Assembly (NCBI GenBank): GCA_902362965.1 | Contig: CABIYQ010000009.1 | Span: 53,227 to 99,673, forward strand | Source: Oscillospiraceae bacterium | GTDB taxonomy: Bacteria > Bacillota > Clostridia > Oscillospirales > Ruminococcaceae | Direction of reading: 5' to 3' | DNA length: 46,447 nt | Part shown: positions 2,458-22,623 of the stretch, in pieces | Position numbering within the stretch: position 1 is the first letter of the stretch | How the letters are laid out: every line of letters starts with the position of its first letter | Notes under the pieces: model-generated | What the model saw: only the letters and a program-made list of their open reading frames with translations | What the model was told of the DNA's origin: nothing | Database searches by the model: none | Translations under genes and position numbers: made by a program

Positions 2458-3948
2458 TTGAATGTATTTAAAATAATTGAAGAACACAATAATTTTGATA
2501 CAGCATTATTATATCGTGGTAAAAAAACTACATATAAAGAATTACTGGAAAAATCCAAAAAATTATCTGATGTAATTAATAAGCATACGGAAAATATACC
2601 TGAGCCTGTAGGAGTATTTATTTCAGGTTCATTGGATTTTTCTGTTTCATTCTTTTCAATAGCGCATGCAGATAAAGTAATTATGCCATTAAATGTAAAC
2701 TTAAAGAAAGCTGAATTCGTACGAATAATTAAATACTTGGATATAAGGATTATTATTACTAATGATTTGTTTTATGATAGACTTATTAAGTTAATTGATA
2801 ATGATATTACAGTAATATGTCTAAATGCTGACGGCGATGTGAAATTTGTTAATGACGTTACTGATATGAGGCATATTGAATATAATAATGAATTAAAAGA
2901 TGTAGCATTGATACTACATACCTCTGGATCGCTTGATTCTCCTAAAAGTGTGATGCTGACACATGAAAATTTGTTAAGCTGTATCCATTCGATATCGGAA
3001 GATTTGAATATAACACAAAAGAATAATACATTAATAATTTTGCCAATGTATTATGCATCTGCAACCATATCACAGTTTCTGACTCATTTGTATGCAGGCG
3101 GAACAGTAACATTTATGGATACAATTTTTACGTCGGAAAATCTGTTTTATAATATTGCAAATTATAAAATAACTAATTTTTCATGTATACCATCAATGCT
3201 TTCAGAAGTATTAAATAATTTAAGCAAAATAGAAAAATATGATTTATCTTCATTAAAATATGTATGTTTTGGCGGTGCGTTTGCAGCCGGTAATAAAGTC
3301 AATGAATTAGTTAAATATTTTTCGAATGTAAAATTTATCAGAACGTACGGTTTGACTGAAGCTTCGACAAGAATTTCACATTATGTTGAACAGCCTGATG
3401 TTATAAATGATACTTGCGTTGGAAAGTGTATTCCGAATGTTAAAGTTAGAATAGTCGATAAAAATGAAAATGATTGCAGGATTGGAGAAATAGGGGAAAT
3501 TACAGTAAAAGGTCCTAATGTTATGAAAGGTTACTATATGCGGACTGATGAAACTGAAAAGGTTATGATTAATGGTTGGCTGCATACTGGTGACTTGGGC
3601 AGGATAGATGAGGAGAATAATTTATATATTGTCGGAAGAAGAAAAAATATTATAATACGCAATGCTGAGAACATATATCCTGAGGAAATAGAAGGAGTTC
3701 TTAATAGTTGTCCGCAAATAAAGGAATCTTTTGTTTATGGAGAACCTCATGAGCTTTTAGGTGAAGTTCCGGCAGCAATAATAGTAATTAACGATGGCTT
3801 TGAGTTTAAAAAACAAGAGTTGATTAATTATTGTTACAATAAATTGTCGAGTTCAAAAATTCCTGTAAAATTTATAGTTGCGGATAAAATTGAAAAGACA
3901 AGTAATGGAAAAATTAACAGAGGGTTCAGAAAAGAGGAGTTTGTATGA
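2458..3948 (+). CDS. Adenylate-forming acyl/aminoacyl ligase (ANL superfamily)
   Basis: A member of the class I adenylate-forming enzymes, which activate a carboxylic acid as the acyl-AMP and load it on CoA or a carrier protein. Visible motifs are the phosphate loop HTSGSLDSPKSV (a variant of TSGTTGxPK), YGLTEAS, HTGDLGRID, GRRKNIIIR, and a C-terminal SNGKINR with the catalytic Lys. At about 496 residues it is the usual size for a stand-alone domain. The frame is open to GTG codons at 2446 and 2449, but AGGTGG lies 8 bases before the TTG at 2458, which I prefer. The stop overlaps the start of the next gene, a carrier protein, by 4 bases, so that protein is the natural acceptor. The substrate cannot be read from sequence. 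Confidence 0.9.
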   Translation: MNVFKIIEEHNNFDTALLYRGKKTTYKELLEKSKKLSDVINKHTENIPEPVGVFISGSLDFSVSFFSIAHADKVIMPLNVNLKKAEFVRIIKYLDIRIIITNDLFYDRLIKLIDNDITVICLNADGDVKFVNDVTDMRHIEYNNELKDVALILHTSGSLDSPKSVMLTHENLLSCIHSISEDLNITQKNNTLIILPMYYASATISQFLTHLYAGGTVTFMDTIFTSENLFYNIANYKITNFSCIPSMLSEVLNNLSKIEKYDLSSLKYVCFGGAFAAGNKVNELVKYFSNVKFIRTYGLTEASTRISHYVEQPDVINDTCVGKCIPNVKVRIVDKNENDCRIGEIGEITVKGPNVMKGYYMRTDETEKVMINGWLHTGDLGRIDEENNLYIVGRRKNIIIRNAENIYPEEIEGVLNSCPQIKESFVYGEPHELLGEVPAAIIVINDGFEFKKQELINYCYNKLSSSKIPVKFIVADKIEKTSNGKINRGFRKEEFV

Positions 3949-4211
3949 TTGAAAAAAATGATTTTGAAGTAGATTTAAAAAAGATAATCAAAGAAAATAC
4001 TTATATTTCACTTGATGATGAAAATTTTAAAGACAATACGGATTTAATTGTAGACTTGGGATTTGATTCACTGTCTATTGTAAATTTGATAGCAGATATT
4101 GAAAAGTATTTTAAAATAGAATTTGAAATAAATGAATTGGTATCTGAGGTAATCGCAAATTATGGGAATCTTAAGAAATGTGTCAGCAGTAAAATTAATA
4201 AGGAAGTGTAA
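3945..4211 (+). CDS. Acyl carrier protein
   Basis: An 88-residue carrier protein with LGFDSLSIV, where the Ser in DSL is the expected 4'-phosphopantetheine site. The four-helix pattern and acidic character are typical. It overlaps the upstream ligase by ATGA and precedes a PaaK-like ligase by 5 bases, so it probably carries the acyl group made by one or both ligases. The likely downstream transfer enzyme is the BtrH-like protein at 21577. A dedicated phosphopantetheinyl transferase is not seen in the window. Confidence 0.9.
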   Translation: MIEKNDFEVDLKKIIKENTYISLDDENFKDNTDLIVDLGFDSLSIVNLIADIEKYFKIEFEINELVSEVIANYGNLKKCVSSKINKEV

Positions 4212-4216
4212 AGTTT

Positions 4217-5476
4217 ATGAAAAATCAGAATTTGTCGACTTTAATAGAATATGCTTATAGGCATGTAAAATATTATCATGAATTATTTAATAAAATAGGT
4301 ATAGACGCTTCTTTAATACAAAGCTCAGAAGATCTGATTAAGATTCCTATTTTAAAAAAAGATACGATACAAGAACAAATGACTGATTTTATTTCAGATG
4401 AATATCAGAAGTTCCCGAAAAATGAAAATGTAGTAATAAAAAGAACATCAGGGTCTACCGGAAAATATCTGAAAATATATTGGGATTATAAGGATGATAT
4501 TAAGTCTTTAATGCCTTTATGGACTCTGAGAAGCAGATTATATGGTATTGATCCGAAAATGAAGTGGTGCAGCTTTTATTCTACCAGATATGAGGGAAAT
4601 AAAATAAAGCCTCTTCTTCCCAAGGAAGTTGCTCTTAACGGCAGATATATGGGATTTTCAAAAATCGGTTTAACATATAAAAAAATTGAGGATAACTACC
4701 GTGATATACTGGAATTTAATCCGGACTGGCTGCTCCTTCAACCCAGTATTGCTTATTTAATGTCGCAAATTGTCAAAGAACATAATTTACCTGTACCATC
4801 AAATTTAAAGTACATAGAAATGAGCGGGGAATATTTATTCGATAATTATAAAAAGCAAATTGAAGAAACCTTTGATGTTTATACGGCTAATCAGTATGGC
4901 TGCAACGAGGCGAATGAAATAGCATATGAATTCAAATGCCGCAATATGCATGTTATTGAAAATAATGTTATTGTTGAAGTACTCAAAGACGGAAAACCTG
5001 TGATAAATGAAGAGGGCGATATATATGTTACTTCTTTAAAGAATTTTGCTATGCCTTTTATTCGTTATCAGACGGGAGACAGAGGTATATTGATAACTGA
5101 TCATAACTGTTCATGTAAAAATAAAGCACCGATATTGAAGGTTAATTCCGGTAGATCCAGTGATTTTTTGCTTTTGGAAAACGGTGAAAAAATGAATAGC
5201 TATGTGTTGGCTAATATTGTTGAGTATACTAATGAAAATATGTCCTCAGCGATCAAGCAGTTTCAGATAACACAGACTGATATTAATAAATTTAATGTTA
5301 ATTTGGTAGTTAAGTCATCATATTCAGGCTGGAAAAATGCGATTAGTGAATGTTTTCTTGATAATATACAAGAGGAAGAACTTAAAAATGCGAAATGGAA
5401 TTTTATTTTTTCTGATGAAATTTGTCCGGATAAAAATACAGGTAAATTTAAGTATTTTATTAATGAATTGATATAA
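4217..5476 (+). CDS. PaaK-like (phenylacetate-CoA ligase/CoF synthetase family) adenylating enzyme
   Basis: A 419-residue protein with the PaaK-type phosphate loop RTSGSTGKYLKIYW, the QYGCNEANEIAYEF segment and FIRYQTGDRG near residue 290, followed by a small C-terminal domain. Members adenylate aromatic or other carboxylates and pass them to a thiol. It sits between the carrier protein and the exporter in the same operon. With the ligase at 2458 there are two acid-activating enzymes around one carrier protein; they could use different acids or act in sequence. The family is clear and the substrate unknown. Confidence 0.85.
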   Translation: MKNQNLSTLIEYAYRHVKYYHELFNKIGIDASLIQSSEDLIKIPILKKDTIQEQMTDFISDEYQKFPKNENVVIKRTSGSTGKYLKIYWDYKDDIKSLMPLWTLRSRLYGIDPKMKWCSFYSTRYEGNKIKPLLPKEVALNGRYMGFSKIGLTYKKIEDNYRDILEFNPDWLLLQPSIAYLMSQIVKEHNLPVPSNLKYIEMSGEYLFDNYKKQIEETFDVYTANQYGCNEANEIAYEFKCRNMHVIENNVIVEVLKDGKPVINEEGDIYVTSLKNFAMPFIRYQTGDRGILITDHNCSCKNKAPILKVNSGRSSDFLLLENGEKMNSYVLANIVEYTNENMSSAIKQFQITQTDINKFNVNLVVKSSYSGWKNAISECFLDNIQEEELKNAKWNFIFSDEICPDKNTGKFKYFINELI

Positions 5477-5498
5477 AGGATTTAAGGATAGGTATAAA

Positions 5499-7313
5499 AT
5501 GTTAAAAATATGGAGCAAGGTAAAGGACTTTTGGTCAATAATCTTTTTTTGTCTGAAATTAACTGTTGAAGCTTCGCCGAAATTTTTTATTTTATATGTA
5601 TTGCTTGATGTTTTAATTGTGGTCGTACCTTTTGCGGTTATTTATGTTACCAGTATTTTGATCAATTTATTGGTTGAGTATGCGGGAAGCAATGACTTTA
5701 ACGGTGTAATACGCTCTTTGATAATTATAAGTTTATTAATGCTTGCACTAAATATATTAAATAAAACCATTGAATCGGTAAAGCTTTATTTGGAAGGCTT
5801 ATATAATGAAATTATAAGTATAAAAACCAGACATCAGATCATGAAAAAGGCGGCTGAAATCGATCTGTACTGCTTTGATTCACCTGAGTTTTATGATGAA
5901 ATGAATGATGCAAGTAATAACAGCGCTTATATAATTCAAACAGCTTTTCAGGTTCTGTCCTTTATTCGTTATTTTTTTCAGTTTTGTATAGCTTTTGTAA
6001 ATCTATTAATGTGGAACGGTATTCTTCCAATATTATTAACACTGTCTGTTATTCCAAGCGTTATATTTAAAAATAAACAATTGGAATCTGTATACAGCTT
6101 TCAAAGAGAGCATATGAAAGACGAGCGAAAAATATTTTACTCTTTTAATATGGCATTGAGTAAGGAATATGCTAAGGATATCAGAATATATGGATTGTTT
6201 CCGTTTTTAAGTTCAAAGGTTTTGAATGCATGGAATCATTTGTTTAATTCAAAAAAGCGAATAACTAAAAGGTATACTAAAATTTTAATTGTTTTTGATA
6301 TGCTGCCCGAAATAATAATGGTGGTATGTATATTTTTGCTTGGCGTATCCGTTATAAGAGGTAATTGTACAATAGGAGATTTTAATTATTATCAGGGAAT
6401 TATCGGACAAGTTACAGCAGGTATATTTATGGTGATATATAATTATACTCAAATATATGATGGCAAAATACGTATAAATAATTATGTAAAGTTTATGAAC
6501 TTTAAAAATAATGTTAAAGATGAAGGTAAATTAGTACTTGAAAAATCATTATTTACTATAGAATTTAAAAATGTTGGTTTTAGATATAATAATAAAGCAA
6601 AATATGTACTGAAAAATTTAAGCTTTAAAATAAGAAGCGATCAGAAAATTGCTTTGGTTGGTGTTAACGGAAGCGGAAAATCTTCAATAATAAAATTACT
6701 TCTTAGATTTTATGATCCTGAAGAAGGAGTAATTTTAATTAACGATAAAGATATTCGGGAATATACCATTGAAAGCGTAAGAAAATGTTTTAGTCCGATG
6801 TTTCAGGATTACTGTAATTATGCTTTTACTGTAAGTGAAGATGTTTCAATATCAAATTATAATGAGTCGCATAATGAGGAAAAAGTTCAGTATGCATTAT
6901 ATAAAAGCGGAGCATATGAATTTGTTGAAAAATTTCCTGATAAGCTGAATACTTATTTATCCCGTCAGTATGAAGAAGGGGAAGAATTGTCTGGCGGACA
7001 GTGGCAAAAAATAGCGCTTTCCAGAATGTTTTTTCAAAATGCGGAAATGTATATTCTTGATGAGCCTTCGTCAGCGTTGGATGCTGAATCGGAAGATGAA
7101 TTATTCCGTAAGTTTGAAGAGCTTTATAAGGATTGCGGTGCGATATTGATTTCTCATAGACTGTCTAATGTTAAAACGGCAGATAATATTCTTGTTATAG
7201 GTGATGGAAAAATAATTGAACAGGGGAATCATAAGGAATTAATGAAATTAAATGGAAAATATGCACGAATGTATAATTTGCAGGCAAAAAAGTACAGCGA
7301 GATAACTGTATAA
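5499..7313 (+). CDS. ABC exporter, fused membrane and ATPase domains
   Basis: A 604-residue half-transporter. About six membrane segments fill residues 20-320, then a nucleotide-binding domain with Walker A GVNGSGKSS (around residue 388), signature LSGGQWQK (around 498), Walker B MYILDEPSSALD (around 518) and the H-loop SHRLS. There is no N-terminal C39 peptidase domain, so leader cleavage must be done by another enzyme, plausibly the S8 protease encoded next. Position in a RiPP operon indicates export of the finished peptide. It probably works as a homodimer, since no partner half-transporter is present. Confidence 0.93.
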   Translation: MLKIWSKVKDFWSIIFFCLKLTVEASPKFFILYVLLDVLIVVVPFAVIYVTSILINLLVEYAGSNDFNGVIRSLIIISLLMLALNILNKTIESVKLYLEGLYNEIISIKTRHQIMKKAAEIDLYCFDSPEFYDEMNDASNNSAYIIQTAFQVLSFIRYFFQFCIAFVNLLMWNGILPILLTLSVIPSVIFKNKQLESVYSFQREHMKDERKIFYSFNMALSKEYAKDIRIYGLFPFLSSKVLNAWNHLFNSKKRITKRYTKILIVFDMLPEIIMVVCIFLLGVSVIRGNCTIGDFNYYQGIIGQVTAGIFMVIYNYTQIYDGKIRINNYVKFMNFKNNVKDEGKLVLEKSLFTIEFKNVGFRYNNKAKYVLKNLSFKIRSDQKIALVGVNGSGKSSIIKLLLRFYDPEEGVILINDKDIREYTIESVRKCFSPMFQDYCNYAFTVSEDVSISNYNESHNEEKVQYALYKSGAYEFVEKFPDKLNTYLSRQYEEGEELSGGQWQKIALSRMFFQNAEMYILDEPSSALDAESEDELFRKFEELYKDCGAILISHRLSNVKTADNILVIGDGKIIEQGNHKELMKLNGKYARMYNLQAKKYSEITV

Positions 7314-7339
7314 AAAATGAATTAAGTGGGATGAAGAGA

Positions 7340-8797
7340 ATGAGCCGAATAAAAGCTGCTATTATCGACGATGGCGTCGACGTTTCTCAGTTCAGTAATA
7401 TACAATCTTTTACAGTAAAAAAAGATTTAAGTATTAAAAAGGATTTTACTGCTGCAAAACAATATAATCATGCAACAACTTGTATGAAAATCATAAAGAA
7501 ATTTACAGATATCAGTAATGTAGATTGGTACAGTATAAAAATATTAGACGATGACAGTAAACTTGCAAATATAAATCAGTTTTTAAAGGCTCTTGAGTTA
7601 TGTGCAGAATTAGGTGTAAAGATAATACACTTAAGTATAGGTACTTCTATATATGATGATTTTGAGTATGTTGAAAAATATGTAAATCGTTTATGTGACA
7701 TGGGTGTTATAATAGTTGCAGCATCCAGCAACAAAGGAACAGTGACATATCCTGCATATATGAATAATGTAATAGGCGTAAAAAACAATTATTTGTTAAA
7801 GGACGATAAATACATATTTAATGAAAACCCAATGGATCATATAGATTTCAGCGCCGCATCCGCACATATTTTACGCAGCGGTAAGGAACTGAATGTAACC
7901 ATGAGGTCTAACAGTTATGCAGCTCCGATAATTACTGCAAAAGTAATTACGATATTGAATAATAATGAATCGGCATCATTTGAAAAAGTTTACAATTTAT
8001 TAATGAAGAATTCGGTTAATAAAAATTGCAAGGTAAATACTGTATATTTTGATCCTTTATCCTGCGCAGACAGAGTTTTATTAAATATTGTTTCTGATAA
8101 AGATGAAGAGGATTTTTTGCCCTTTTCACAAATAAATTATCCTCAGTATATACTGCATTCGGAAACTTATAAAAGTGAACTGAACGAAATTGATTTAAGC
8201 AGATATGATCAAATAATTTTAAGTTTCTTGTCATTACAATATCAGAAATCGGAGATTATTTCTTATTTTTTGAATAATTATAATGGAAAAATAGCAGTTT
8301 ATCATAACGATTCGTTTTTTGAATACAGTTCAAAAAATAGAAGTGAAGCGGAGCGTTTATGGTTATATAAAAATAAAATGTTTGAATCTTTAAAGGCGGA
8401 TAATAAAGAAAATAAGATAAATATACCTGTTGTAGGCATTCATTGTGAATCAATTCAGAAACTGGTTAACATAATTTATAAACTGAATTATAATTTTAAA
8501 TCAGACGGGTACTATTGTGAATCATTTTTGGAAATGTCTCAGGCAGAATTACTTGGTTTTAATGTTATTCCCAATTTGAATATTAAGCAATTTTTATGTA
8601 AAAGCAGTAATTTTTTTAACTGTAATATAATTATAATAGGTTTTAGTAATTTGAACCTGATTGAAAAATTTAACGACTTTGACGTTATTATATGTCAGGA
8701 TAAATACAAGAAAGAATTATCTTTAATAAATAATGATACTGTATATATTGATTGTAAAGATGATATGTATAAAAAGCTAATATCAATTTTAGAATGA
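7340..8797 (+). CDS. Subtilisin-like (S8) protease with a C-terminal maturation-system domain
   Basis: Counting from the ATG at 7331, the subtilase triad is Asp13 (AIIDDG), His47 (NHATT) and Ser195 (SNSYAAP, where most family members have GTSMAAP); the oxyanion Asn is in AASSNKG near 134. There is no signal peptide or propeptide, so it should act in the cytoplasm, most likely on the precursor peptides. Residues from about 250 on are not protease. Their last part (VVGI, GYYCES, ELLGF, IIIIGFSN) resembles the second half of the protein encoded at 10236. S8 proteases accompany CLI_3235-type clusters as far as I recall. I prefer the ATG at 7340 for ribosome-site spacing, but 7331 is possible. Confidence 0.83.
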   Translation: MSRIKAAIIDDGVDVSQFSNIQSFTVKKDLSIKKDFTAAKQYNHATTCMKIIKKFTDISNVDWYSIKILDDDSKLANINQFLKALELCAELGVKIIHLSIGTSIYDDFEYVEKYVNRLCDMGVIIVAASSNKGTVTYPAYMNNVIGVKNNYLLKDDKYIFNENPMDHIDFSAASAHILRSGKELNVTMRSNSYAAPIITAKVITILNNNESASFEKVYNLLMKNSVNKNCKVNTVYFDPLSCADRVLLNIVSDKDEEDFLPFSQINYPQYILHSETYKSELNEIDLSRYDQIILSFLSLQYQKSEIISYFLNNYNGKIAVYHNDSFFEYSSKNRSEAERLWLYKNKMFESLKADNKENKINIPVVGIHCESIQKLVNIIYKLNYNFKSDGYYCESFLEMSQAELLGFNVIPNLNIKQFLCKSSNFFNCNIIIIGFSNLNLIEKFNDFDVIICQDKYKKELSLINNDTVYIDCKDDMYKKLISILE

Positions 8798-8819: not shown

Positions 8820-10223
8820 ATGGAAAATAAACCGTTTGTTCATATGTTGAAAACACCGCTTGCAAAATATGCTTTTGATGTAAATACAAATCAACTTATC
8901 CAGGTGAATGAAGAGTTATATGATTATTTAAAAAAATCAAGCGACGCTTCGATAAGCAGTGCAGCTAAAAAGCAGCTGGACTTTTTAACGTCTCACGGAT
9001 ATCTTTCTAGTAAACACCCCAAAAAAATGAAACATTATCAGAGCGATTTGCTTGAATATCAGTTGAATGAAAATGTTGCACAAGTCACGCTTCAGGTAAC
9101 TCAGCAATGTAATTTCAGGTGTTCTTACTGTCCTTATACTACTGCTGAATTTGATGTTCAAAGAAAACATAATTCTAATACAATGTCTTATGAGACGGCA
9201 AAAGCCGCCGTAGATTTCTTTGCGGAGCATTCTGCTAATCAGAACGACGTTTGTGTTGGGTTTTACGGCGGAGAACCTCTTTTAGAGTATGATTTGATAA
9301 AAGCAATGGTTGAATATTCAGAGAAAATATTCAAGGGAAAAAATCTGACATTTACTGTGACTACAAATGGTTCTCTTTTTACACCTGAAAATGTGAAGTT
9401 TTTTAACGAGCATAATTTCAATGTAATGATTAGTCTGGACGGTCCTCCGGAAGTACATGACAGATCAAGAAAATTTGCTGCAACTGGTATGGGTACATTT
9501 TCAGTAATAGCTAAAAATATACAAATGATAAAGGAAGATTTTCCGGAATTTTTTAATAAAATTTCATTTAATATTGTTATTGATCCGAGGTATTCATGTA
9601 ACGATCTGCATGAAATGTTTAATAACAGTGAACTGTTTTCAGATTCCAATATTCGTTCAACCTTAATTGAGGATTTCTTTTCATATGAAAAAGTTATTTC
9701 TGATGAGGTTTACGATATTGAGCAAAATATACATGAATTCAAAGCATATTTATCCGAATTAGGCAAATACCCTAAGGAAAAGGTTTCTAAGATAGCTTAC
9801 AATAATCTGCATCAAAATATAGCAAGACTTAATATGTCAATGCAGCCTCAAAAAACTCTATTGGATACTATGTCCCATAGCGGACCTTGTATTCCGGGGC
9901 AAAGAAGATTGTTTATCGATGTAAACGGTAATTTTTTCCCTTGCGAAAGAGTAAGCGAAACTTCCGATGCGATGAAAATAGGCGATTTAAAAAATGGATT
10001 TGACTTTGAAAATGCAAGAAAAATTCTTAATGTTGCAGATTTAACAGAAAAGCAGTGCTGTAATTGCTTTGCAATACGTCATTGCACCACATGTGCAAAA
10101 TATTGCGATAATAACGGTGAATTGTCTGCGGAACTGAAGTTGTCAAATTGTAAAAACGTTCGTTTCAATGCAGAGGAGACATTTAAAAATTATTTGATAT
10201 TAAAAGAATTAAAAAGTGTGTGA
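8820..10223 (+). CDS. Radical SAM/SPASM peptide maturase (CcpM-like)
   Basis: A 467-residue maturase. The radical SAM cluster motif CNFRCSYC supplies Cys97, Cys101 and Cys104; YGGEP and TTNGS follow. A SPASM domain from about residue 350 has Cys357 (GPCIPG), PCERV and the dense CCNC...CTTC...YC run for auxiliary iron-sulfur clusters. The first 90 residues look like a peptide-binding winged helix. Related enzymes of Cys-rich peptides make thioether or other radical crosslinks, and the gene order matches the clostridial CLI_3235/Clo7bot system, whose enzyme is called CcpM (named from memory). The substrates should be the three peptides at 11738-12270. The actual crosslink is not predictable. 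Confidence 0.92.
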   Translation: MENKPFVHMLKTPLAKYAFDVNTNQLIQVNEELYDYLKKSSDASISSAAKKQLDFLTSHGYLSSKHPKKMKHYQSDLLEYQLNENVAQVTLQVTQQCNFRCSYCPYTTAEFDVQRKHNSNTMSYETAKAAVDFFAEHSANQNDVCVGFYGGEPLLEYDLIKAMVEYSEKIFKGKNLTFTVTTNGSLFTPENVKFFNEHNFNVMISLDGPPEVHDRSRKFAATGMGTFSVIAKNIQMIKEDFPEFFNKISFNIVIDPRYSCNDLHEMFNNSELFSDSNIRSTLIEDFFSYEKVISDEVYDIEQNIHEFKAYLSELGKYPKEKVSKIAYNNLHQNIARLNMSMQPQKTLLDTMSHSGPCIPGQRRLFIDVNGNFFPCERVSETSDAMKIGDLKNGFDFENARKILNVADLTEKQCCNCFAIRHCTTCAKYCDNNGELSAELKLSNCKNVRFNAEETFKNYLILKELKSV

Positions 10224-11737: not shown

Positions 11738-11896
11738 ATGAAAAAGCTAGTTAAGGCTAATACCGGCAGAAAAGACAGTGTAGAAGCTTATGCTTGCAGT
11801 TGTACTTGCAGTTGTCCATGTTCCGGAGGTGCAAACAAGGTTACTCAAGCAGTATCCAATAGTTCTACAAGAGCACAGAAACCTAATAATAAGTAA
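11738..11896 (+). CDS. Cys-rich precursor peptide 1 (Clo7bot/CLI_3235-type)
   Basis: A 52-residue precursor. The ATG at 11738 has AAAGGAGG 9 bases upstream; the longer open frame from 11687 has no ribosome site. The leader MKKLVKANTGRKDSVEAY is followed by the core CSCTCSCPCSGG, with Cys20, 22, 24, 26 and 28 in strict CxC alternation, then a Lys/Thr/Ser tail. It is the likely substrate of the radical SAM enzyme at 8820. The mature product boundaries are unknown; the protease could cut before or after the Cys block. Confidence 0.88.
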   Translation: MKKLVKANTGRKDSVEAYACSCTCSCPCSGGANKVTQAVSNSSTRAQKPNNK

Positions 11897-14906: not shown

Positions 14907-15759
14907 AAGATTCAGGTTTTCATATGGCAAAATTATTTCTTATATAATTTTGAGCTTGTTATCGGTTGTAGTACTGATGCCGGTCGTTTTTATGATTTGC
15001 GGTTCTTTAATGGGGAAGTCGGAAATATTAAATAGTTTCGGAAATTTGATCACTAATGATAATACGGACAGCAACTTTCATATTATTCCGAATCAAATAA
15101 CTTTAATGGGGTATGCAGATGTTTTTTTACTTGACCCATCTTATTTGATGAAATTCTGGATCTCAATTTTTATATCTGTTACAATCGTAGTCGGTCAGGT
15201 TATAATATCGTGTTTCAGTGCGTACGGTTTAGCCAAGTTTAATTTTCCGTTTAAAAATGTAATATTTTATCTTGTAGTTATTTTGATGATGCTGCCTGTT
15301 CAGGTAACGTTAGTTCCGAATTACATATTGTTTGATAAGATAGGACTGATAGGATCTTATCTTTCTTTGATACTTCCCGGCATTTTCAGTACCTTTGGCG
15401 TATTTCTTCTGACGCAGGTGTTTTCTGCTATTCCTAATGATATGATTGAGGCAGCGAAAATTGATGGAGCAAATCATTTTCAGATATTAATTAGGATAAT
15501 TATACCATGTTCCAAAACCGGAATAGCGTCTTTAATTATATTATGTTTTATAGATTCATGGAATATGATTGAACAGCCGTTGGCCTTTTTGAAAAATTAC
15601 TTGAAATATCCGCTTTCAATATTCCTTTCACGTATAAATGATACTAAATTAGATATAGCTTTTGTGTGCGGAGTATTGGCAATTATTCCTGTTTTCATAT
15701 TGTTTTTATTTTTTAAAGACGCTTTAATAAAAGGTGTTGAATATTCTAATATGAAATAA
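14893..15759 (+). CDS. Sugar-type ABC importer permease (MalG/UgpE-like)
   Basis: A 288-residue partner permease with six membrane segments and a well-kept coupling loop MIEAAKIDGANHFQILIRIIIP. It overlaps the first permease by 14 bases, which suggests translational coupling. An alternative ATG at 14899 lies just downstream. It should form the heterodimeric membrane channel with the protein at 14007. Confidence 0.9.
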   Translation: MNMVKRFRFSYGKIISYIILSLLSVVVLMPVVFMICGSLMGKSEILNSFGNLITNDNTDSNFHIIPNQITLMGYADVFLLDPSYLMKFWISIFISVTIVVGQVIISCFSAYGLAKFNFPFKNVIFYLVVILMMLPVQVTLVPNYILFDKIGLIGSYLSLILPGIFSTFGVFLLTQVFSAIPNDMIEAAKIDGANHFQILIRIIIPCSKTGIASLIILCFIDSWNMIEQPLAFLKNYLKYPLSIFLSRINDTKLDIAFVCGVLAIIPVFILFLFFKDALIKGVEYSNMK

Positions 15760-15787
15760 TTGAATTATACTGTAGAGGTGAATGTTA

Positions 15788-16858
15788 ATGGAACAAAAAA
15801 ATAATAAAAAGTTTTTGATTCAAATATCTGTTATTGTATTGATTATATTGCTCTTGTGTACTTTTCTTTCAAAATCAATTTATAATATGTCTCTTCCATA
15901 TGTAGAGGTAATAAATCCTGCTGCGGAAAAGCTTTCGGTGTCTTCAAGTGCAACCGGTGAGGTAATGGTTGATAGTCAGAAAATATGTTACAATGTTCCA
16001 TTAAAAATAACGGAAGTTTATGTAAAGGAAAATGATGAAGTTAAAGCCGGAGACGTTCTCTTTGAAGTAGACAGCAAAGAATTCTCTATAAATATACAAA
16101 AGAAAGAACTTGAGGTTCAAAAAATTGAAGATCAGCTTGACCAATGGTTATCATATAAGGATCGTGCTAAACTTGAAGATGAATTGGAAATTGCCGAAGG
16201 AGAGCTTGAACTGTATAAAGAGCAGGTTCCTTATGATGGAAATGTTTGTGCTGAAAATAATGGTATTATATCTGAAATAAAGGTAAACGCCGGAGATTTG
16301 ACTAAGGAAGGCGATACCTTGGCGGAAATTACAGATGAAGCTCAAAGTATGTCTGTAAAATTTTCATTTGGTCAAACAGATGACGTACTGTGCAGAGTCG
16401 GAGATGAGGTACAGTTGACTTATATGGAAACTGCGTGGTATGAAGGTAAGCCGTCAACTGAAGAAAAAACTGTTAATACTACGGTTATTAAAAGAGAATA
16501 TGATACTGAAAAAAAGCAGTATTTCTTTTATGCCGAGATAGATAACAGTAATAAAAAGTTTTATGAGGGACAGAAAATAAAAGTCAATTATATTATTTCC
16601 TCGGATTTATATGAAAATGTTGTTCCTTTAAATGCAATTTCTAAAGATGAAAATAGAGATACTGTAGTTTATGTTTTACAGTCTAGAGACGGTTTGTTTG
16701 GTGAAGAATACTATGTAAAAAAAGTTAAAGTAGATCAGTTGGAAAAAAATAATGTGAAGTCGGCTATTAACGGAGATGATATAAGTGCTTATATTGAAGT
16801 CGTAGTATCATCGTCAAGAGCGCTTACCTCTGGGGAGACTGTGAGGGTAGTACGGTGA
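15788..16858 (+). CDS. HlyD/MacA-like membrane fusion (efflux adaptor) protein
   Basis: A 356-residue protein with one N-terminal membrane anchor (about residues 12-32). A biotinyl-lipoyl-like barrel half (ITEVYVKENDEVKAGDVLFEVD), a coiled-coil hairpin (about 110-150), the second barrel half (GIISEIKVNAGDLTKEGDTLAEI) and a beta domain follow. This is the adaptor fold of type I and MacAB-like exporters, seen in Gram-positive bacteria with FtsX-type permeases. The ATG at 15788 has GAGGTG 7 bases upstream; the ATG at 15782 is too close to it. The next gene starts within its stop codon (GTGA). Confidence 0.87.
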   Translation: MEQKNNKKFLIQISVIVLIILLLCTFLSKSIYNMSLPYVEVINPAAEKLSVSSSATGEVMVDSQKICYNVPLKITEVYVKENDEVKAGDVLFEVDSKEFSINIQKKELEVQKIEDQLDQWLSYKDRAKLEDELEIAEGELELYKEQVPYDGNVCAENNGIISEIKVNAGDLTKEGDTLAEITDEAQSMSVKFSFGQTDDVLCRVGDEVQLTYMETAWYEGKPSTEEKTVNTTVIKREYDTEKKQYFFYAEIDNSNKKFYEGQKIKVNYIISSDLYENVVPLNAISKDENRDTVVYVLQSRDGLFGEEYYVKKVKVDQLEKNNVKSAINGDDISAYIEVVVSSSRALTSGETVRVVR

Positions 16859-18069
16859 TTATAACTAAGTATTCAAAGCTTAAATTATTTTTATACACAA
16901 TAATTTTTGCACTTTTTATGTTTATGAGTATTTCAGTACGGCAGCAAGTAATATCAGCGCTGCCTGAGGCTGTAGAATATGTATCAAAAAATAATACGGA
17001 CTATATAACGCTTTCTGAGATTAAACAAGCCGTTAATAATTCAGATGATATTATGACAGTAAATGTACAGAACCGTAAAAACGGAACAGCTGAGGCATAC
17101 CATACTTCTCTTTTATCTGATAATGTCAATATTATTCTTACTGATGAAAATTATCCTGAAATACATAATATAAATATGATAAAGGGCAATTTTTTTTCAG
17201 CAGTTATTTCAGAATCTGATGCAATAGTAATAAGCGACAGTCTGGCAAATTTGCTTTTTAAAAGTATAGATATTATTGGATGTCAAATGATATTGAATGG
17301 TGAAACCAAGACTATTTCCGGAGTCTATGAGAATAACGAAAGCTTTGTAAGTGATTTATCTTCTAATGGACTTGAAACAGTGTTTGTACCGGTATATTAT
17401 CAAACTGATATTAATGATTCGACTAGAATTGAAAGCTTTTATGTCAAAGGAAATAACGGCTCAATCGGCAATAAGGAAATCCAGGAATTAAATGCACTCC
17501 TGAATAATAAGCTTGAATTATATAAACAAAACGATTTAAATTCTTCAAAAAAGTTATTGATGCAGCTTTTTAATATCATAATATTCGTTATAGGACTGAT
17601 TGTGGTTGTAAAACTTTTTTCTGTAATTATTAAAAATATAAAAAAAATAGTAAATTATATTATAGCTGTCAAGGGTTTTGACAATGCAGTTCCGTCAGTA
17701 AATGTAAAATTATGCATACTCGGTACCATATTATGTATTGCTTTTATAATTCCTATAATAGTTTTGTGTACGTTTAAAATATACATACCCGAAGGCTTTA
17801 TACCTGAACATGACCGTATATGCGATATTTCTTATTATTATGACTATATGTTGAATTTCGTTCAGGGAATAAGAACAGAGGATAGATGGAATTATTATCA
17901 GGAGTTAATACTGAGTTTTTATGTGATTTTATTTGTTTTGGGAATTAGTACAGTTATAATGTTTATAAAAACGTTTTTTATGTATATTAAATTTTTCCGT
18001 ACATATGCGGAAGGCTTTAATGATTCGGTGCAAAAAACTTTAGTAAAGGATGAAAGGAATGAAAAATAA
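16855..18069 (+). CDS. FtsX/MacB-like membrane protein
   Basis: A 404-residue protein with a GTG start overlapping the previous stop. Topology is one N-terminal membrane segment (10-28), an extracytoplasmic domain of about 200 residues (IHNINMIKGNFFSAVISESDAIVISDSLANLLF is of the MacB periplasmic type), then three membrane segments (near 238-262, 285-308 and 360-385). This is the FtsX/MacB permease layout. With the adaptor at 15788 it would make a MacAB-like transporter, but no MacB-type ATPase is encoded here. Sequence divergence keeps the family call moderate. Confidence 0.7.
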   Translation: MIITKYSKLKLFLYTIIFALFMFMSISVRQQVISALPEAVEYVSKNNTDYITLSEIKQAVNNSDDIMTVNVQNRKNGTAEAYHTSLLSDNVNIILTDENYPEIHNINMIKGNFFSAVISESDAIVISDSLANLLFKSIDIIGCQMILNGETKTISGVYENNESFVSDLSSNGLETVFVPVYYQTDINDSTRIESFYVKGNNGSIGNKEIQELNALLNNKLELYKQNDLNSSKKLLMQLFNIIIFVIGLIVVVKLFSVIIKNIKKIVNYIIAVKGFDNAVPSVNVKLCILGTILCIAFIIPIIVLCTFKIYIPEGFIPEHDRICDISYYYDYMLNFVQGIRTEDRWNYYQELILSFYVILFVLGISTVIMFIKTFFMYIKFFRTYAEGFNDSVQKTLVKDERNEK

Positions 18070-19636
18070 ACCGGTTGTAGGAATTCTTTTGGATACAAGG
18101 GGCGATCCGCCATACATAAGCGTAGGGAAACTTTGGAAACAGTCTATTAACATACTACAGGAAAAATATTCAATAGAAGTTTTAGAAATTGATTCTTATA
18201 AAGTAGAAAACGATAGCAGATACAGAGAATTTGTTCAAAAAATTGATTTACTAATGGTCTTATCTCCCTATTATACTATAGACAGAACTGTGAAAAAGTT
18301 TCCGGTTGTTGCTTACGGTTTAGGATCAATGCAGAAAGGCGGTCATTGGCTTTATGACAACAAAGACAGTTTTAAAAGCTATGATTCGATTATATTAAAT
18401 TCTACTGCTTGTCAGAGTATATTTGAAGAATTAGTTATGGATAATAGTTTGAAGTCATGTTTTATACCTTTTGGTGTGGATACGTCGATCTTTTATCCTA
18501 GACCAAATAAGTCGGAACTGCGAAAAAAGTATAATGTTCCGGAAAACGCTTTTATTATGCTGTACTGCGGTAGGATCAATTTACAGAAAAATCCCATGCT
18601 GCTTCTCAGTATACTTAGAGATATGGCAGATAAATATAAAAATTTATATTTAATGTTTATGGGTTCTTTTGATAATTTTTATATACCGGAATTTTCTGAT
18701 AAATCGTCGCCAGATACTAAAAATGAATTTTATAAAATGGTTGAAGAGTTTAATCTGAATTCCAGAATTATAATGTTTGATACTCAGAATATTTCCCAAA
18801 CTTATGCGGAAATGATTTGTTTGGCTGATATAGGTATTAATCTGACTACTTTAATAAGTGAAAATTTTGGTTATACTCCTGTTGAAATGCAAGCATGCGG
18901 TCTGCCTGTGATAGGTACTGATTGGGGCGGACTAAAGGATACTATTGTAGATAATGTAACCGGATTCAGTATTCAAACCGTTTTATCGAAAAACGGTGTG
19001 AGAATCAATTTAGAGCAAATTAAAAATAGGATAGAATTGTTGATTAATAATCCTGAACTATTAAAACAAATGGGAGTTAATGCAAGGGAGAACGTTATAA
19101 AAAATTATTCTTATACATTATTTGCTGACAGAATCCAAAATCTGATATCTGAAACATATAATGAATTTATATCCGGAAGCATGAATGAGTCGGAAATAAA
19201 ACTGAATCCGATCATGAAAAAAATGTCTCATGATATAAAAAGTAATTATGGAACTTCACGGTGTGTAAGCTGGGAGTATCTTCATCCCGAAATAGATTTT
19301 GACCATTATGATTTGATCGTTTCAAAATGTGCAACAGGAAAATCAGATGATATCCAATGGAATAAGGAGGATATTGTTTCTAAGGGATTTGACTGGTCGG
19401 TAATAAACGGCAAATTTAAATCATACGATCCGCGTTGGAATCAGTCGTTTGAATTAGTTGATTGGAGTTTAAGCGATGCTGAATTGAAATTTCTTGAATC
19501 AGTTGACAAGGGTCATACTATTGATGAGCTGATAAGTACATATAATCGTGAAAATACTTTTGAACTGTTGAATACTCTGACTTGTAAAGGCTTGCTTATG
19601 CCGTTTAAAAAGGAAATGATGTATGTCACGGAATGA
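18059..19636 (+). CDS. GT4-type glycosyltransferase with a C-terminal winged-helix-like extension
   Basis: A 525-residue protein. Residues to about 370 form a GT-B glycosyltransferase: LYCGRINLQKNP, and the donor-binding SENFGYTPVEMQACGLPVIGTDWGG with the EX7E pair of the GT4 family. The last 130 residues are extra. They end in a segment (WSLSDAELKFLESVDKGHTIDELISTY through LLNTLTCKGLL) with the helix-helix-wing rhythm of PqqD-like RiPP recognition domains. If that holds, the enzyme may dock on the precursor leader and glycosylate it. The start at 18059 has AAAGGA 8 bases upstream. The gene overlaps both neighbours. Confidence 0.82.
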   Translation: MKNKPVVGILLDTRGDPPYISVGKLWKQSINILQEKYSIEVLEIDSYKVENDSRYREFVQKIDLLMVLSPYYTIDRTVKKFPVVAYGLGSMQKGGHWLYDNKDSFKSYDSIILNSTACQSIFEELVMDNSLKSCFIPFGVDTSIFYPRPNKSELRKKYNVPENAFIMLYCGRINLQKNPMLLLSILRDMADKYKNLYLMFMGSFDNFYIPEFSDKSSPDTKNEFYKMVEEFNLNSRIIMFDTQNISQTYAEMICLADIGINLTTLISENFGYTPVEMQACGLPVIGTDWGGLKDTIVDNVTGFSIQTVLSKNGVRINLEQIKNRIELLINNPELLKQMGVNARENVIKNYSYTLFADRIQNLISETYNEFISGSMNESEIKLNPIMKKMSHDIKSNYGTSRCVSWEYLHPEIDFDHYDLIVSKCATGKSDDIQWNKEDIVSKGFDWSVINGKFKSYDPRWNQSFELVDWSLSDAELKFLESVDKGHTIDELISTYNRENTFELLNTLTCKGLLMPFKKEMMYVTE

Positions 19637-20636
19637 AACTGGTGCGTTTATAGTACCGCATTATAACGACGGAAACGAGATAGAACTTAAGTGGTTTGGA
19701 GAAGCTTTAAATAGTATAAAATTACAAACTGATAATGACTGGAAGATAATTGTAATTGACGACGCTTCAACATCTGAAAAAGCGATAAGCTTTCTGAAAC
19801 AAATGAAAAAGTACTTTTCTGAAAAGATGGAGGTTATTTTTTTATCAGAAAATCTGGGTCCCGGCAATGCTCGTAATATCGGTATTAAGAGAGCTTTTGA
19901 ATTGGGCTGCCCATTTGTTCTATACCTTGATCAAGATGATATTTCCCATCCTGAAAGACTTGAGGTTACAAGAAAAATATTTAACCGTCAACAGGAAGCC
20001 GGAGTCGTTTACAGTACATTTCAGGTAATTGATGATAATAGTGATATTGTACCAAAAAATAAAATTATACCGTCCATTCAGGAAATACTTGACAGTCATG
20101 TCAATAATCCTCCTCAGGGGAAAAATGTATGGATAAGAATTGCAACCGAAACCGGATATGTTAATCTAACGTCGTCTACAAGCGTACGTACTGATGCGGC
20201 ATTAAGGTGTCCGTTTCCTATAGAAAGAGTTTCTGAGGACTATTATACATGGCTGACTTATTCTGCGTCAGGTTATCAATTTGTTTACACTCCTTTGATT
20301 CCCAGCGGGTATAGAATACCGCAAATTGTCAACGGTTCCAGATCAAGAAGTTCCTCGGGAGGAACGCATACGTTTAATATGATCAAGAGTATTATTGATA
20401 TGAGAAGTATTCAGGCTGCTGCTGATATAGCTTATAAAAACGGAAGTTTTACAGATAAACAAATAAAAGAGATAAAGGTGAGATTCTGTTTAAAAAAATC
20501 AGAATCAATGGCAATAGACGGCGAAAAGGAAATCTCAGAAGATTATATTTACAGAGCAAGGGATATTGACAATGAATTGACTGAAAAATTATTAAAGGAA
20601 AAGGAAAGTATGTTTTATGGCGGTATTATTGACTAA
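19623..20636 (+). CDS. GT2-type glycosyltransferase
   Basis: A 337-residue GT-A enzyme: GAFIVPHYND near the N-terminus, WKIIVIDDAST, LGPGNARNIGI, and LYLDQDDISHPERL supplying the DxD-like metal site. There are no membrane segments, so it should act in the cytoplasm on a nucleotide-sugar. It overlaps the GT4 gene by 14 bases and the Ntn hydrolase gene by 20, so the three are likely translated together. The acceptor is unknown; peptide glycosylation is an inference from context. Confidence 0.87.
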   Translation: MSRNETGAFIVPHYNDGNEIELKWFGEALNSIKLQTDNDWKIIVIDDASTSEKAISFLKQMKKYFSEKMEVIFLSENLGPGNARNIGIKRAFELGCPFVLYLDQDDISHPERLEVTRKIFNRQQEAGVVYSTFQVIDDNSDIVPKNKIIPSIQEILDSHVNNPPQGKNVWIRIATETGYVNLTSSTSVRTDAALRCPFPIERVSEDYYTWLTYSASGYQFVYTPLIPSGYRIPQIVNGSRSRSSSGGTHTFNMIKSIIDMRSIQAAADIAYKNGSFTDKQIKEIKVRFCLKKSESMAIDGEKEISEDYIYRARDIDNELTEKLLKEKESMFYGGIID

Positions 20637-21561
20637 TTCAGTGGCAACAAATGGAATTAATAAGACTGTTCAGATGCTAAATCAGAATGTCTCTTCATTG
20701 GACGCTATTGAATCCGGAATCAGATTAGTGGAATCAGATCCTGAAGCGGGGTGGGTTGGATATGGAGGCCATCCCAATCTGCTTGGGACAGTAGAATTGG
20801 ATGCAGGTATCATGGACGGTTTAACTCTTAATGCAGGAGCAGTTGGAGCGTTGTCCGGATATTTGCACCCTATTTCTGTTGCCAGAAATGTAATGGAAAA
20901 ATTGCCTCATGTTTTTCTTGCCGGAAACGGCGCTGCTAAATTTGCTGAAGATTGCAATGCAGAATCCGGAGATAATCTTACTGTGCGTACTTGTAAGGAC
21001 TGGAATGACTGGCTGAATAATAACCGTAATTTAAGTGAATCAAATAATTGGCCGGACGTAAGCCTGATCAGATTGTCAATGTTGACTGCGAATAATAAAA
21101 CAGCAAAAGGTACTACAATTTTTCTTGCGCAGGATAATGACGGAAATTTTAGTGCCGGTTCAAGTTCAAGCGGTTGGAGCTTCAAATATCCCGGCAGACT
21201 TGGAGATTCGCCTGTTATTGGTTCCGGTATATATGCTGACAATAGATACGGAGCAGCTGCTTGTACCGGAATGGGGGAATTGACTTTAAGGTCTAATACT
21301 GCAAGGTCTGTTATTCTTTATCTAAAAATGAATATGACGTTAAAAGAAGCTTGTTATGAGGCATTAAATGATTTGAGAGCTATAAAAACCGATTTCAGAG
21401 GCGGAGTTACGATTTATGCTTTAGACGCAAAGGGAAATCGTTTTGTATTGTCTGTCAGGGCTTTGGATAAAGGATTGCCTGAATGCGATACTTATTATTG
21501 GTACTGGGATAATCAGTATGATGAGCCTGTCAAAATGAATGCGGTTATGGAAAATTGGTAG
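20617..21561 (+). CDS. Glycosylasparaginase/isoaspartyl peptidase-like Ntn hydrolase
   Basis: A 314-residue member of the threonine Ntn-hydrolase family (N4-(beta-N-acetylglucosaminyl)-L-asparaginase, plant-type asparaginase). Family blocks are SSLDAIESGIRLVESDPE, GYGGHPNLLGTVELDAGIMDG, and, after a variable linker, KGTTIFLAQDNDGNFSAG, then RLGDSPVIGSGIYADN and AAACTGMGE. The Thr after KG (near residue 167) is where autocleavage exposes the nucleophile; the usual GTVG reads GTTI here. There is no signal peptide. Next to two glycosyltransferases it may trim an Asn-linked sugar or an isoaspartyl peptide during maturation. Confidence 0.85.
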   Translation: MAVLLTNSVATNGINKTVQMLNQNVSSLDAIESGIRLVESDPEAGWVGYGGHPNLLGTVELDAGIMDGLTLNAGAVGALSGYLHPISVARNVMEKLPHVFLAGNGAAKFAEDCNAESGDNLTVRTCKDWNDWLNNNRNLSESNNWPDVSLIRLSMLTANNKTAKGTTIFLAQDNDGNFSAGSSSSGWSFKYPGRLGDSPVIGSGIYADNRYGAAACTGMGELTLRSNTARSVILYLKMNMTLKEACYEALNDLRAIKTDFRGGVTIYALDAKGNRFVLSVRALDKGLPECDTYYWYWDNQYDEPVKMNAVMENW

Positions 21562-21576
21562 AAAGGGAGGATTGCT

Positions 21577-22623
21577 TTGAAAGATTATTTGAGTATGCAT
21601 TATTATTATAATGATGATGGTACGGCAGATGAGATTGTGGATTCTCTTGGGGATTGTCTTGTTCAAAGCGCATATGTAATATTGAAAAATAAATATAATA
21701 TGCGAAATGATTATTATAAGGCATTTTTAAATGAAACTACTGTTAGATTAAGTTTATATAATGATAACAGCATCGCTTGTTTTGCAACGATTGAAAATAA
21801 TTTTAATAAAATGTTGTTTTCAATGAAAGAATATGAAGAAAATGAAAATACCGTTAATAAAGTCAGTGAAATTTTAAATTCAGGTGAAATACCGGTTATT
21901 AAAACCATTGTCGAAAGACTGCCCTATTCATCATTTTATAATGAAGCTTATAAGCTGAATCAGATCAGAACGCATCATGTATTTTTAATTGTTGGCGAAG
22001 ATACAGATAATTTTTTCTTTATAGATAATCCCAGCGTAATATCGTATGGCAGATTTGAAGCATTTTCCGGTAATAAAGAAGTGGGCGTTTTACCTAAAAA
22101 TATTTTGTATAATGCTACAAAGGATGTTAGTAGTATTTTTGTTTTTAATTTTAATATGGATACGATTGATAAATATATTAACAATCCGTTATTCGCTTTT
22201 GCAAATTCAAGAAATAATTATTTGAAGGAAAGTGAAACGGAAGATAATTTATTGCATTTTTTTGGAAAGCAGGCGTTGTTAAAGCTAAAAGAATTATTTG
22301 AAATGGAGTGTATTGATCTAGAGTCTGTAGCCCCTTCAAAAGACAGAAGTATGATTATATATTTAAATTGGAAAATCTGGAATATAAAAGGACGCAGAAA
22401 ATTGTTACGGCATTATTTAAATGAAAATAAGAGTAATATTGGAGAAAAAGGTATAAAAATGATAAGTGTTCTGGACAATTCTATTACTCATTGGTTGTTA
22501 TTGTACAGAGTTATATACAGAGATTATCTTAAGGGAAATTTAATTTTGGGAAATCAATATGTCAAATTGTTAAATGAAATTATTATATGTGAAGATGAAA
22601 TATATGGGTTATTAGGTTCTTAA
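21577..22623 (+). CDS. BtrH-like acyltransferase (butirosin H N-terminal domain family), copy 1
   Basis: A 348-residue protein with a papain-like arrangement: Cys26 in DSLGDCLVQSA, His in THHVFLIVGEDTDN (near 132) and Asp in FFIDNPSVISY. This resembles the BtrH family, whose founding member moves an acyl group from an acyl carrier protein to an amine. Here the natural donor is the carrier protein at 3945 loaded by the ligases beside it. It starts at TTG 21577 with AAAGGGAGG upstream, 15 bases after the hydrolase gene. A close paralogue lies at 38279; they share long identical stretches, e.g. YKAFLNETTV. The family call is good; the acceptor is unknown. Confidence 0.75.
   Translation: MKDYLSMHYYYNDDGTADEIVDSLGDCLVQSAYVILKNKYNMRNDYYKAFLNETTVRLSLYNDNSIACFATIENNFNKMLFSMKEYEENENTVNKVSEILNSGEIPVIKTIVERLPYSSFYNEAYKLNQIRTHHVFLIVGEDTDNFFFIDNPSVISYGRFEAFSGNKEVGVLPKNILYNATKDVSSIFVFNFNMDTIDKYINNPLFAFANSRNNYLKESETEDNLLHFFGKQALLKLKELFEMECIDLESVAPSKDRSMIIYLNWKIWNIKGRRKLLRHYLNENKSNIGEKGIKMISVLDNSITHWLLLYRVIYRDYLKGNLILGNQYVKLLNEIIICEDEIYGLLGS

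Follow-up and report, generated by a model that had tools for sequence, protein, structure and literature searches.

Gene content of the island

The stretch of DNA analysed here (the window; 46,447 nucleotides, positions 53,227 to 99,673 of contig CABIYQ010000009.1 from an Oscillospiraceae bacterium) carries an island (2446–22623) in which the maturation machinery of a ribosomally synthesized and post-translationally modified peptide (RiPP) of the CLI_3235/CcpM type stands beside genes with predicted roles in glycosyl and acyl transfer. On balance, we favour reading the island as a single ribosomal-peptide biosynthetic locus whose peptide is tailored with sugar and acyl groups and is probably antibacterial. 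The genes form two head-to-tail runs on the + strand (Table 1). Run 1 (2446–12270) encodes, in order, an AMP-forming ligase, an acyl carrier protein (ACP1), a PaaK-like ligase, an ABC exporter, an S8 protease, the radical SAM maturase CcpM, a TIGR04066 protein, a TIGR04069-like protein and three precursor peptides. Run 2 (12543–22623) encodes a solute-binding lipoprotein, two permeases, an HlyD-type adaptor, a MacB_PCD-type permease, glycosyltransferases of families 4 and 2 (GT4 and GT2), an N-terminal nucleophile (Ntn) hydrolase and a BtrH-like protein. Gaps inside the runs range from -20 to +83 bases, and 272 bases separate precursor 3 from the solute-binding protein gene. A first-pass annotation of this DNA had named the core, ligase, carrier, glycosyltransferase, hydrolase and acyltransferase genes, with short or overlapping gaps; all are present in the order given, and the gaps are short except for the interval between the runs. 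It had also treated 12543–22623 as a second operon. The part up to 18069 proved to consist of transport genes, and the four genes that follow are GT4, GT2, Ntn and BtrH-like (hereafter the cassette).

The maturase, the TIGR04066 protein and the three precursors exceed the NCBI cut-offs for their families, which makes the system a member of the CLI_3235/CcpM RiPPs. The TIGR04069-like protein misses its cut-off, yet TIGR04069 is by far its best family. We treated this companion as non-essential because none was detected in 5 of the 30 core loci compared below. As regards a sactipeptide or ranthipeptide product (thioether to the alpha carbon or to a different one), the RumMC and PapB models match the maturase, both below cut-off. 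Of the earlier label for the core, CLI_3235/Clo7bot, the first half stands and the second was rejected: the maturase scores 79.7 bits on TIGR04334 (cut-off 600). Among the open-licence papers searched, four use CLI_3235 and the TIGR0406x names, and none uses Clo7bot. Precursor 1 most likely starts at 11738 rather than 11687, as judged from the likeness of its leader to those of the other precursors.

Table 1. Genes and features of the island, with window coordinates and the evidence for each assignment.
Feature	Position	Strand	Evidence
AMP-forming acyl ligase (AMP-binding and C-terminal domains)	2446..3948	+	PF00501 197 bits; PF13193 57 bits
Acyl carrier protein ACP1, DSL motif	3945..4211	+	PF00550 38.8 bits; DSL in alignment
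PaaK-like adenylating ligase	4217..5476	+	NCBIfam PaaK/DVU_1553 models <=97 bits, below cut-off; no Pfam match
ABC exporter, membrane and ATPase parts	5499..7313	+	PF00005 98 bits; no C39 peptidase match
S8 protease, presumed leader peptidase	7331..8797	+	PF00082 E 9e-8; QhpE model 79 bits, below cut-off; IDDG at 12, HAT at 47, SNSYAAP at 193
CcpM radical SAM/SPASM peptide maturase	8820..10223	+	TIGR04068 521.6 bits, cut-off 500; CNFRCSYC at residue 97
TIGR04066 peptide maturation protein	10236..11360	+	313.6 bits, cut-off 200
TIGR04069-like carrier-related protein without attachment Ser	11370..11654	+	46.5 bits, below cut-off 70; Ala at column
Precursor peptide 1, core CSCTCSCPC, C-terminal Lys	11738..11896	+	TIGR04065 34.9 bits, cut-off 26
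Precursor peptide 2	11934..12074	+	TIGR04065 33.6 bits, cut-off 26
Precursor peptide 3	12112..12270	+	TIGR04065 32.6 bits, cut-off 26
RNA hairpin, 15 pairs, 3' of precursors (terminator or attenuator)	12303..12338	+	z -6.9
Solute-binding lipoprotein	12543..13925	+	PF01547 43 bits
Binding-protein-dependent permease 1	14007..14906	+	PF00528 59 bits
Binding-protein-dependent permease 2	14893..15759	+	PF00528 59 bits
HlyD-type adaptor	15782..16858	+	PF13533, PF16576
MacB_PCD/FtsX-type permease	16855..18069	+	PF12704 47 bits
GT4 glycosyltransferase with C-terminal beta3-alpha3 (RRE-like) domain, ~442-519	18050..19636	+	PF00534 81 bits
GT2 glycosyltransferase	19623..20636	+	PF00535 78 bits; DQD at residue 103
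Glycosylasparaginase-like Ntn hydrolase	20617..21561	+	PF01112 211.6 bits, threshold 27
BtrH/CcbD/CtaG-like papain-fold amide synthase (predicted)	21577..22623	+	C27, H134, D150

Recurrence of the cassette beside CcpM-type cores

We compared 30 distinct core loci. A maturase search in named genomes had given 15 loci, and genome searches gave further ones. Left out before counting were L061 and L062, on the same contigs as L007 and L009, and L091 and L092, which have a distant maturase and fused S8 and TIGR04066 genes. At a loose threshold, a TIGR04068 search was positive in 270 of 297 genomes and in 13 of 14 controls; the cut-off was exceeded in 3 of the 297, and only the ten best places were used further, three of them on contigs already among the collected loci. 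Loci with GT4 are designated GT+ (6 of 30) and the other 24 GT-. The GT- stretches span 6.7–21.4 kb, some cut at contig ends, and absence refers throughout to the stretch read. The maturase and TIGR04066 genes are present in all 30 loci, an ABC gene in 24, S8 in 19, PaaK in 11, solute-binding proteins in 11 and the permease pair in 6. The BtrH-like gene was found in the identical six loci that have GT4, and in all six the cassette is accompanied by ACP1 and PaaK of run 1. The cassette is therefore optional for CcpM cores, 24 of the 30 showing neither GT4 nor the BtrH-like gene. Such cores, which the first-pass annotation had named as potential counter-evidence to a joint product, bear out that objection in part.

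The closest relative found is an uncultured Oscillospiraceae metagenome-assembled genome (MAG), G001 (L001; maturase 88%), which has the gene order of the window, an intact Ntn gene (L093) and open frames wherever seen, with the first ligase truncated at a contig end. The Ruminococcus flavefaciens MAG G002 has two clusters. The first (L071+L053) runs ACP1, PaaK, ABC, S8, maturase, TIGR04066, TIGR04069, precursor, a fused GT4-GT2, Ntn, BtrH-like and AMP ligase. The second (L002) has a GT4 of 432 residues, an Ntn remnant, BtrH-like, ACP1, PaaK and the core, and has lost GT2 and the GT4 C-terminus. The order in G811 (L067/68) and G824 (L069/70/72) matches that of L053, with GT4-GT2 fusions of 849 and 848 residues, and Ntn proteins 69% and 67% identical to that of the window. 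Their BtrH-like proteins share 38% and 43% identity with whichever of the two in the window is closer. G824 has in addition a lipoprotein-permease-permease-HlyD block and a formyltransferase (L072:4817-5680, - strand; PF00551, 68.5 bits) adjoining an adenylating ligase; by eye, an apparent related C-terminal formyltransferase piece lies at L053:12359-12712. Across the six GT+ clusters, Ntn is intact in five, and GT4 and GT2 are fused in three and separate and overlapping in two. The recurrence that the first-pass annotation had named as favouring its proposal was thus found, with GT4, GT2, Ntn and BtrH-like genes adjoining CcpM-type cores in G001, G811, G824 and one of the two G002 clusters.

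The losses in L002, which include most of Ntn, and the maturase of L087, reduced to a 142-residue fragment, could also signal a cluster that is decaying and mostly inactive. We regard this as highly improbable for the window, where all genes are open and the checked motifs intact, as are the frames seen in G001.

Wider searches returned the cassette in the same company. At E<=1e-60, GT4 was found in 1 of 11 genomes of the G001 genus, 2 of 396 of the family, 1 of 391 of the class, 3 of 125 of the G002 genus and 1 of 394 of the order (overlapping samples), the single match in the class and in the order being G001. These amount to five places in four genomes, all five beside a CcpM-type core. The 125 genomes of the G002 genus hold TIGR04066 at ten places in nine genomes, with GT4 and BtrH-like genes at four each, all within those ten. 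The remaining six places (L087-L092) have no cassette, and their genomes gave no GT4 or BtrH-like match at the thresholds used. Nine genomes contained the BtrH-like gene at four places. Three of these adjoin a CcpM core; the fourth (G001:C114) lies next to genes for an amino acid:carrier ligase and a carrier protein and two ABC genes. Scans of viral contigs with the Ntn, TIGR04066, GT4 and CcpM proteins gave no confirmed relative; a plasmid search gave no match for GT4 and 3 distant records for CcpM.

These distributions bear on whether the island holds two independent pathways brought together by chance on a mobile element, the second making a separate small acyl-glycoside. Large serine recombinases flank the island in the window (9-1766 and 40891-42405, both - strand) and, by eye, recombinase-like pieces adjoin the L002 and L053 clusters, so all three clusters are probably mobile; the 24 cores without a cassette also fit a chance meeting. 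Such a coincidence is nonetheless quite unlikely, given that all five GT4 places adjoin a CcpM-type core despite rearranged gene orders and that all six GT+ loci pair the cassette with ACP1 and PaaK of run 1.

Glycosyltransferases and the RRE-like domain

The GT4 model (pLDDT 91.6) has a GT4-type fold, and its closest solved chains in whole-GT4 Foldseek matches are HepE, PimB', BshA and MshA. E271 and E279 are invariant in 30 aligned rows. After the catalytic part, the model predicts a confident domain of three strands (442-445, 449-452 and 455-458) and three helices (476-486, 491-498 and 500-512), resembling in fold a RiPP precursor recognition element (RRE). Assignment as an RRE was not upheld by sequence. 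Comparison of the GT4 C-terminus with the CcpM N-terminus (hhalign) gave a probability of 1%, inside the range of 24 other region pairs, and a Pfam search of ten fragments gave no match to PqqD (PF05402); one of the ten matched winged-helix families, best HTH_24. We retain the term RRE-like for the fold only. Because these tests failed and other winged helices have the same fold, leader docking by this domain is put forward only as a proposal.

A GT4 protein search at E<=1e-30 returned 55 proteins, including the window's own type; 38 GT4 relatives reach E of about 1e-110 or better. Twelve of them carry both GT4 and GT2 Pfam domains, and ten of those have 846-867 residues. The relative P0036 (37%), with an alignable C-terminal domain, is from Candidatus Kentrum, and the family therefore extends past the Firmicutes. 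PF20706 (GT4 in conflict systems) was detected on P0035 and P0036.

Predicted acyl activation and the BtrH-like protein

The top NCBIfam rows for the AMP-forming ligase are acyl-CoA ligase types, every row listed being below cut-off. The island encodes two carrier-like proteins, and ACP1 alone has a DSL motif, which is kept in all six GT+ clusters. At the column of the attachment Ser, the TIGR04069-like proteins of the same six carry Ala or Pro and are therefore not loadable in the usual way. Ser-bearing carriers were present in 2 of the 24 GT- loci, L015 (DSI) and L088 (NSL), a difference from GT+ loci with an uncorrected p of 4.7e-5. In L088 (15161-16615), the CcpM-type locus is followed by the NSL carrier and, by eye, an apparent ketosynthase gene, a hint of recurring acyl chemistry among RiPPs of this class.

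The last gene of the cassette had been called a BtrH-like acyltransferase. By family criteria this fails: the protein scores 13.6 bits on PF14399 (BtrH_N), below the gathering threshold of 29.7, and the best of its four matches among PDB sequences has an E of 0.18. The likeness survives in the predicted structure, a papain fold of the CcbD/CtaG type with 9-12% identity to the CcbD, CtaG and BtrH chains. Furthermore, the C27, H134 and D150 triad is invariant in 16 aligned rows.

Elsewhere in the window (38279-40763), another BtrH-like gene, 48% to that of the cassette, stands with genes for a carrier protein and an amino acid:carrier ligase resembling seryl-tRNA synthetase (NF005479, 122.9 bits, below the cut-off of 357). 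G001 has the same trio (L052) followed by two ABC genes. The arrangement suggests that amino acid:carrier ligases may have an acceptor step of this kind.

Precursors, Ntn hydrolase and transport genes

Precursors were picked by pattern and by eye, and none was found in four GT- loci (L055, L059, L060 and L089), leaving 20. All ten precursors of the six GT+ loci end in Lys, versus those of 4 of the 20 GT- loci (p 0.0009 by locus, uncorrected for kinship). Among ten relatives of precursor 2 from the database, nine have the C-terminal Lys as well, and the tenth extends past the usual end. No amino-sugar gene is present among the annotated island genes, and the C-terminal Lys is therefore the simplest amine for the BtrH-like enzyme.

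The hairpin 3' of the precursors was scored on a 103-base stretch against 200 shuffles (Table 1), and an Rfam scan of the window matched no family. Strong stems, folded without a shuffle control, follow the precursors in the five other GT+ loci, and in L053, L067 and L069 a T run stands after the stem and before GT4. The stem and T run suggest that the tailoring genes are probably reached by read-through or from a start of their own.

The closest solved chains to the Ntn hydrolase are glycosylasparaginases (1p4k, E 9.5e-44), with isoaspartyl peptidases behind (about 1e-32). Its nucleophile Thr and GR.GDSP motif align with those of glycosylasparaginases. Known glycosylasparaginases have Asp before this Thr at the self-cleavage site; the window protein has Gly. 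A role in the pathway is argued by the position of the gene, between GT2 and the BtrH-like gene in five of the six GT+ clusters. As a guess, the enzyme could trim glycosyl-Asn or process aspartyl bonds. The Ntn and BtrH-like proteins might instead confer self-resistance, by converting product that stays in the cell to an inactive pro-form, acylated or deglycosylated. The kinship of Ntn to glycosyl-asparagine hydrolases fits this idea, as does the reported protection of butirosin from resistance mechanisms by BtrH (PMC10318531). That statement concerns the antibiotic's escape from resistance rather than producer immunity, and in the clusters compared here the two genes stay together with those for biosynthetic ligases and a carrier protein, leaving self-resistance improbable.

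The transport genes of run 2 have a distribution of their own. Solute-binding protein and permease genes lie beside CcpM cores without a cassette in L054, L060 and L087, and solute-binding proteins without permeases do so in L006, L007, L009, L057 and L058. For example, five solute-binding protein genes are interleaved with three CLI_3235-type precursors beside the core of L006 (12872-21275). Because it recurs without the cassette, we take the block to be a separate module, serving perhaps in uptake, sensing or immunity.

Downstream of the island, a sortase-pilus cluster (23872-37802) encodes a signal peptidase, a 2950-residue protein, a pilin and two sortases, and is kept in G001 (L051) at 85-97% identity. 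Further on, 43170-43445 and 43789-44061 (- strand) encode two similar small proteins with, by eye, the look of RelE/YoeB-type toxins. The pilus cluster, the lipoprotein and transporters that open run 2, and the hairpin that parts the precursors from that run raise an alternative in which the cassette serves the locus by modifying a surface or envelope molecule, such as the solute-binding lipoprotein or the downstream pilin/adhesin, for self-protection or display. This target is unlikely in our view. In L053 and L067 the fused GT4-GT2 gene directly follows the precursor, with no lipoprotein or permease gene detected in the stretch. Furthermore, GT4 carries the predicted RRE-like fold, and, by eye only, no signal peptide was apparent in any of the four cassette proteins.

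Proposed pathway

A pathway for a tailored peptide can be outlined from these genes. CcpM would modify cysteines of the three short precursors. GT4, possibly docking the precursor leader via its RRE-like domain, and GT2 would build a short sugar chain. One or both acyl ligases would charge ACP1 with an acid, and the BtrH-like papain-fold enzyme would then move the acyl group to a peptide amine as an amide, the conserved C-terminal Lys being the first candidate. The S8 protease would cut off the leader and the ABC exporter secrete the product. The linkage and gene families behind this scheme are supported by the gene set, its recurrence, the predicted folds, the catalytic motifs and the C-terminal Lys; we infer from them that the enzymes act on the peptide, and likewise the sequence of reactions, the acceptor amine, the kinds of sugar and acyl group and the antibacterial role.

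In its boldest form, this interpretation would describe a new RiPP subtype, acylated glyco-CcpM peptides. A leader-docking GT4 and GT2 would build a sugar chain on a Cys peptide already modified by radical SAM chemistry, and a papain-fold amide synthase of the CcbD/CtaG/BtrH type, supplied by a stand-alone ligase and a carrier protein, would cap the C-terminal Lys (or a sugar amine) with an acyl or aminoacyl group. We offer this version tentatively, as a possibility with less in its favour than against it. If true, a ribosomal pathway would have taken up the amide-synthase logic of nonribosomal ones. The bounded gene set and its six clusters lead to testable predictions, namely a glycosylated, amide-capped Cys peptide, a leader-docking GT4 and a papain-fold amide synthase acting on a ribosomal peptide.

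Several observations, besides the GT- majority and the failed RRE tests, weigh against a tailored CcpM peptide. TIGR04068 is the best family for the maturases of L053, L067 and L069, but their scores of 446.8, 467.5 and 385.4 bits lie below the cut-off of 500; the L002 maturase reaches 515.3 bits, and the TIGR04066 proteins of these loci are over cut-off. The precursors of these four GT+ loci (n=4) gave no TIGR04065 match at 1e-5. C-terminal Lys is not confined to GT+ loci, given the four GT- loci that share it. Ser/Thr-rich tails, tried as a glycosylation mark, were rejected (0.28 in 7 GT+ and 0.27 in 13 GT- peptides, p 0.94), so the tails mark no glycosylation site. The hairpin stands between the precursors and the tailoring genes. 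The BtrH-like model is of middling quality (pLDDT 71.8, below 50 at residues 1-26). SacP23, the related peptide discussed below, is active without a cassette, according to the available text (PMC10731318). Finally, kinship tempers the co-occurrence of the BtrH-like gene with GT4 (Fisher p 1.7e-6, uncorrected). In trees of 28 of the 30 loci (L087 and L090, with broken maturases, omitted), the GT+ loci form one clade for TIGR04066 (98/95) and need two changes for the maturase, where L003-L006 fall among them. The cassette may thus have been gained once, in which case its co-occurrence counts as one acquisition.

The strength of the link is the retention of the cassette through rearrangement and gene fusion, rather than the raw p-values. 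Of the product first proposed for this DNA, the joint action of core and cassette is well supported by linkage and GT4-GT2 fusion, and a Cys-crosslinked, glycosylated and N-acylated peptide is their putative product.

Relation to known systems

Searched for radical-SAM peptides bearing sugar or acyl groups and for acylated RiPPs, listings and abstract openings of the open-licence literature yielded no description of this tailoring combination, in agreement with the earlier claim that no described RiPP has such a gene set. In the excerpts available, CcpM is named as a known group (PMC9062424) and a CLI_3235-type cluster is only predicted (PMC7343975). The only studied product found there for the bare CcpM/CLI_3235 machinery is SacP23 of Paenibacillus polymyxa #23. 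Its eight-gene CLI_3235/TIGR04068/TIGR04066/TIGR04069 cluster, cloned whole in Bacillus subtilis, yielded a peptide (m/z 3404) with activity against Gram-positive bacteria; the authors expected thioethers but did not show them and left the structure open (accessible part of PMC10731318). That cluster shares with the window the CLI_3235-family precursor, ABC transporter, TIGR04068 maturase, TIGR04066, TIGR04069 and subtilisin-like protease, whereas the ligases, DSL carrier, glycosyltransferases, Ntn hydrolase and BtrH-like gene of the window have no counterpart in its gene table (PMC10731318).

Individual elements of the cassette have counterparts elsewhere. RRE-glycosyltransferase fusions predicted with RRE-Finder, as far as the available text describes them, likewise join a glycosyltransferase to a beta3-alpha3 domain, some near radical SAM genes (PMC7470986; PMC12710340). 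The clusters concerned are unproven, and four of the nine include radical SAM genes (PMC7470986). The 2025 report (PMC12710340) names PF00535 (GT2), whereas the window's domain sits on GT4. The Ntn hydrolase shares its aligned nucleophile Thr with the bacterial glycosylasparaginase 1p4k and differs in the preceding Gly and in its place in a biosynthetic operon. CcbD, CtaG and BtrH are carrier-protein-dependent, amide-forming enzymes; their distant counterpart here, under the Pfam threshold, is encoded among the genes for a ribosomal peptide. Fatty-acylated RiPPs (lipolanthines, goadvionins, selidamides and nostolysamides) also bear an acyl group on a ribosomal peptide, in nostolysamides on Lys side chains, according to the partial sources available. 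These RiPPs are known for GNAT-type acyltransferases, whereas the window has a papain-fold enzyme together with glycosyltransferases.

The window thus has the maturase, TIGR04066 protein and precursors of the CLI_3235/CcpM system (TIGR04065, TIGR04066, TIGR04068 and TIGR04069), to which it adds GT4 and the BtrH-like gene, as well as a Ser-bearing carrier protein missing from 22 of the 24 GT- cores. What sets it apart from the described CcpM/CLI_3235 systems is the presence of glycosyltransferase and acyl tailoring genes together beside the core.

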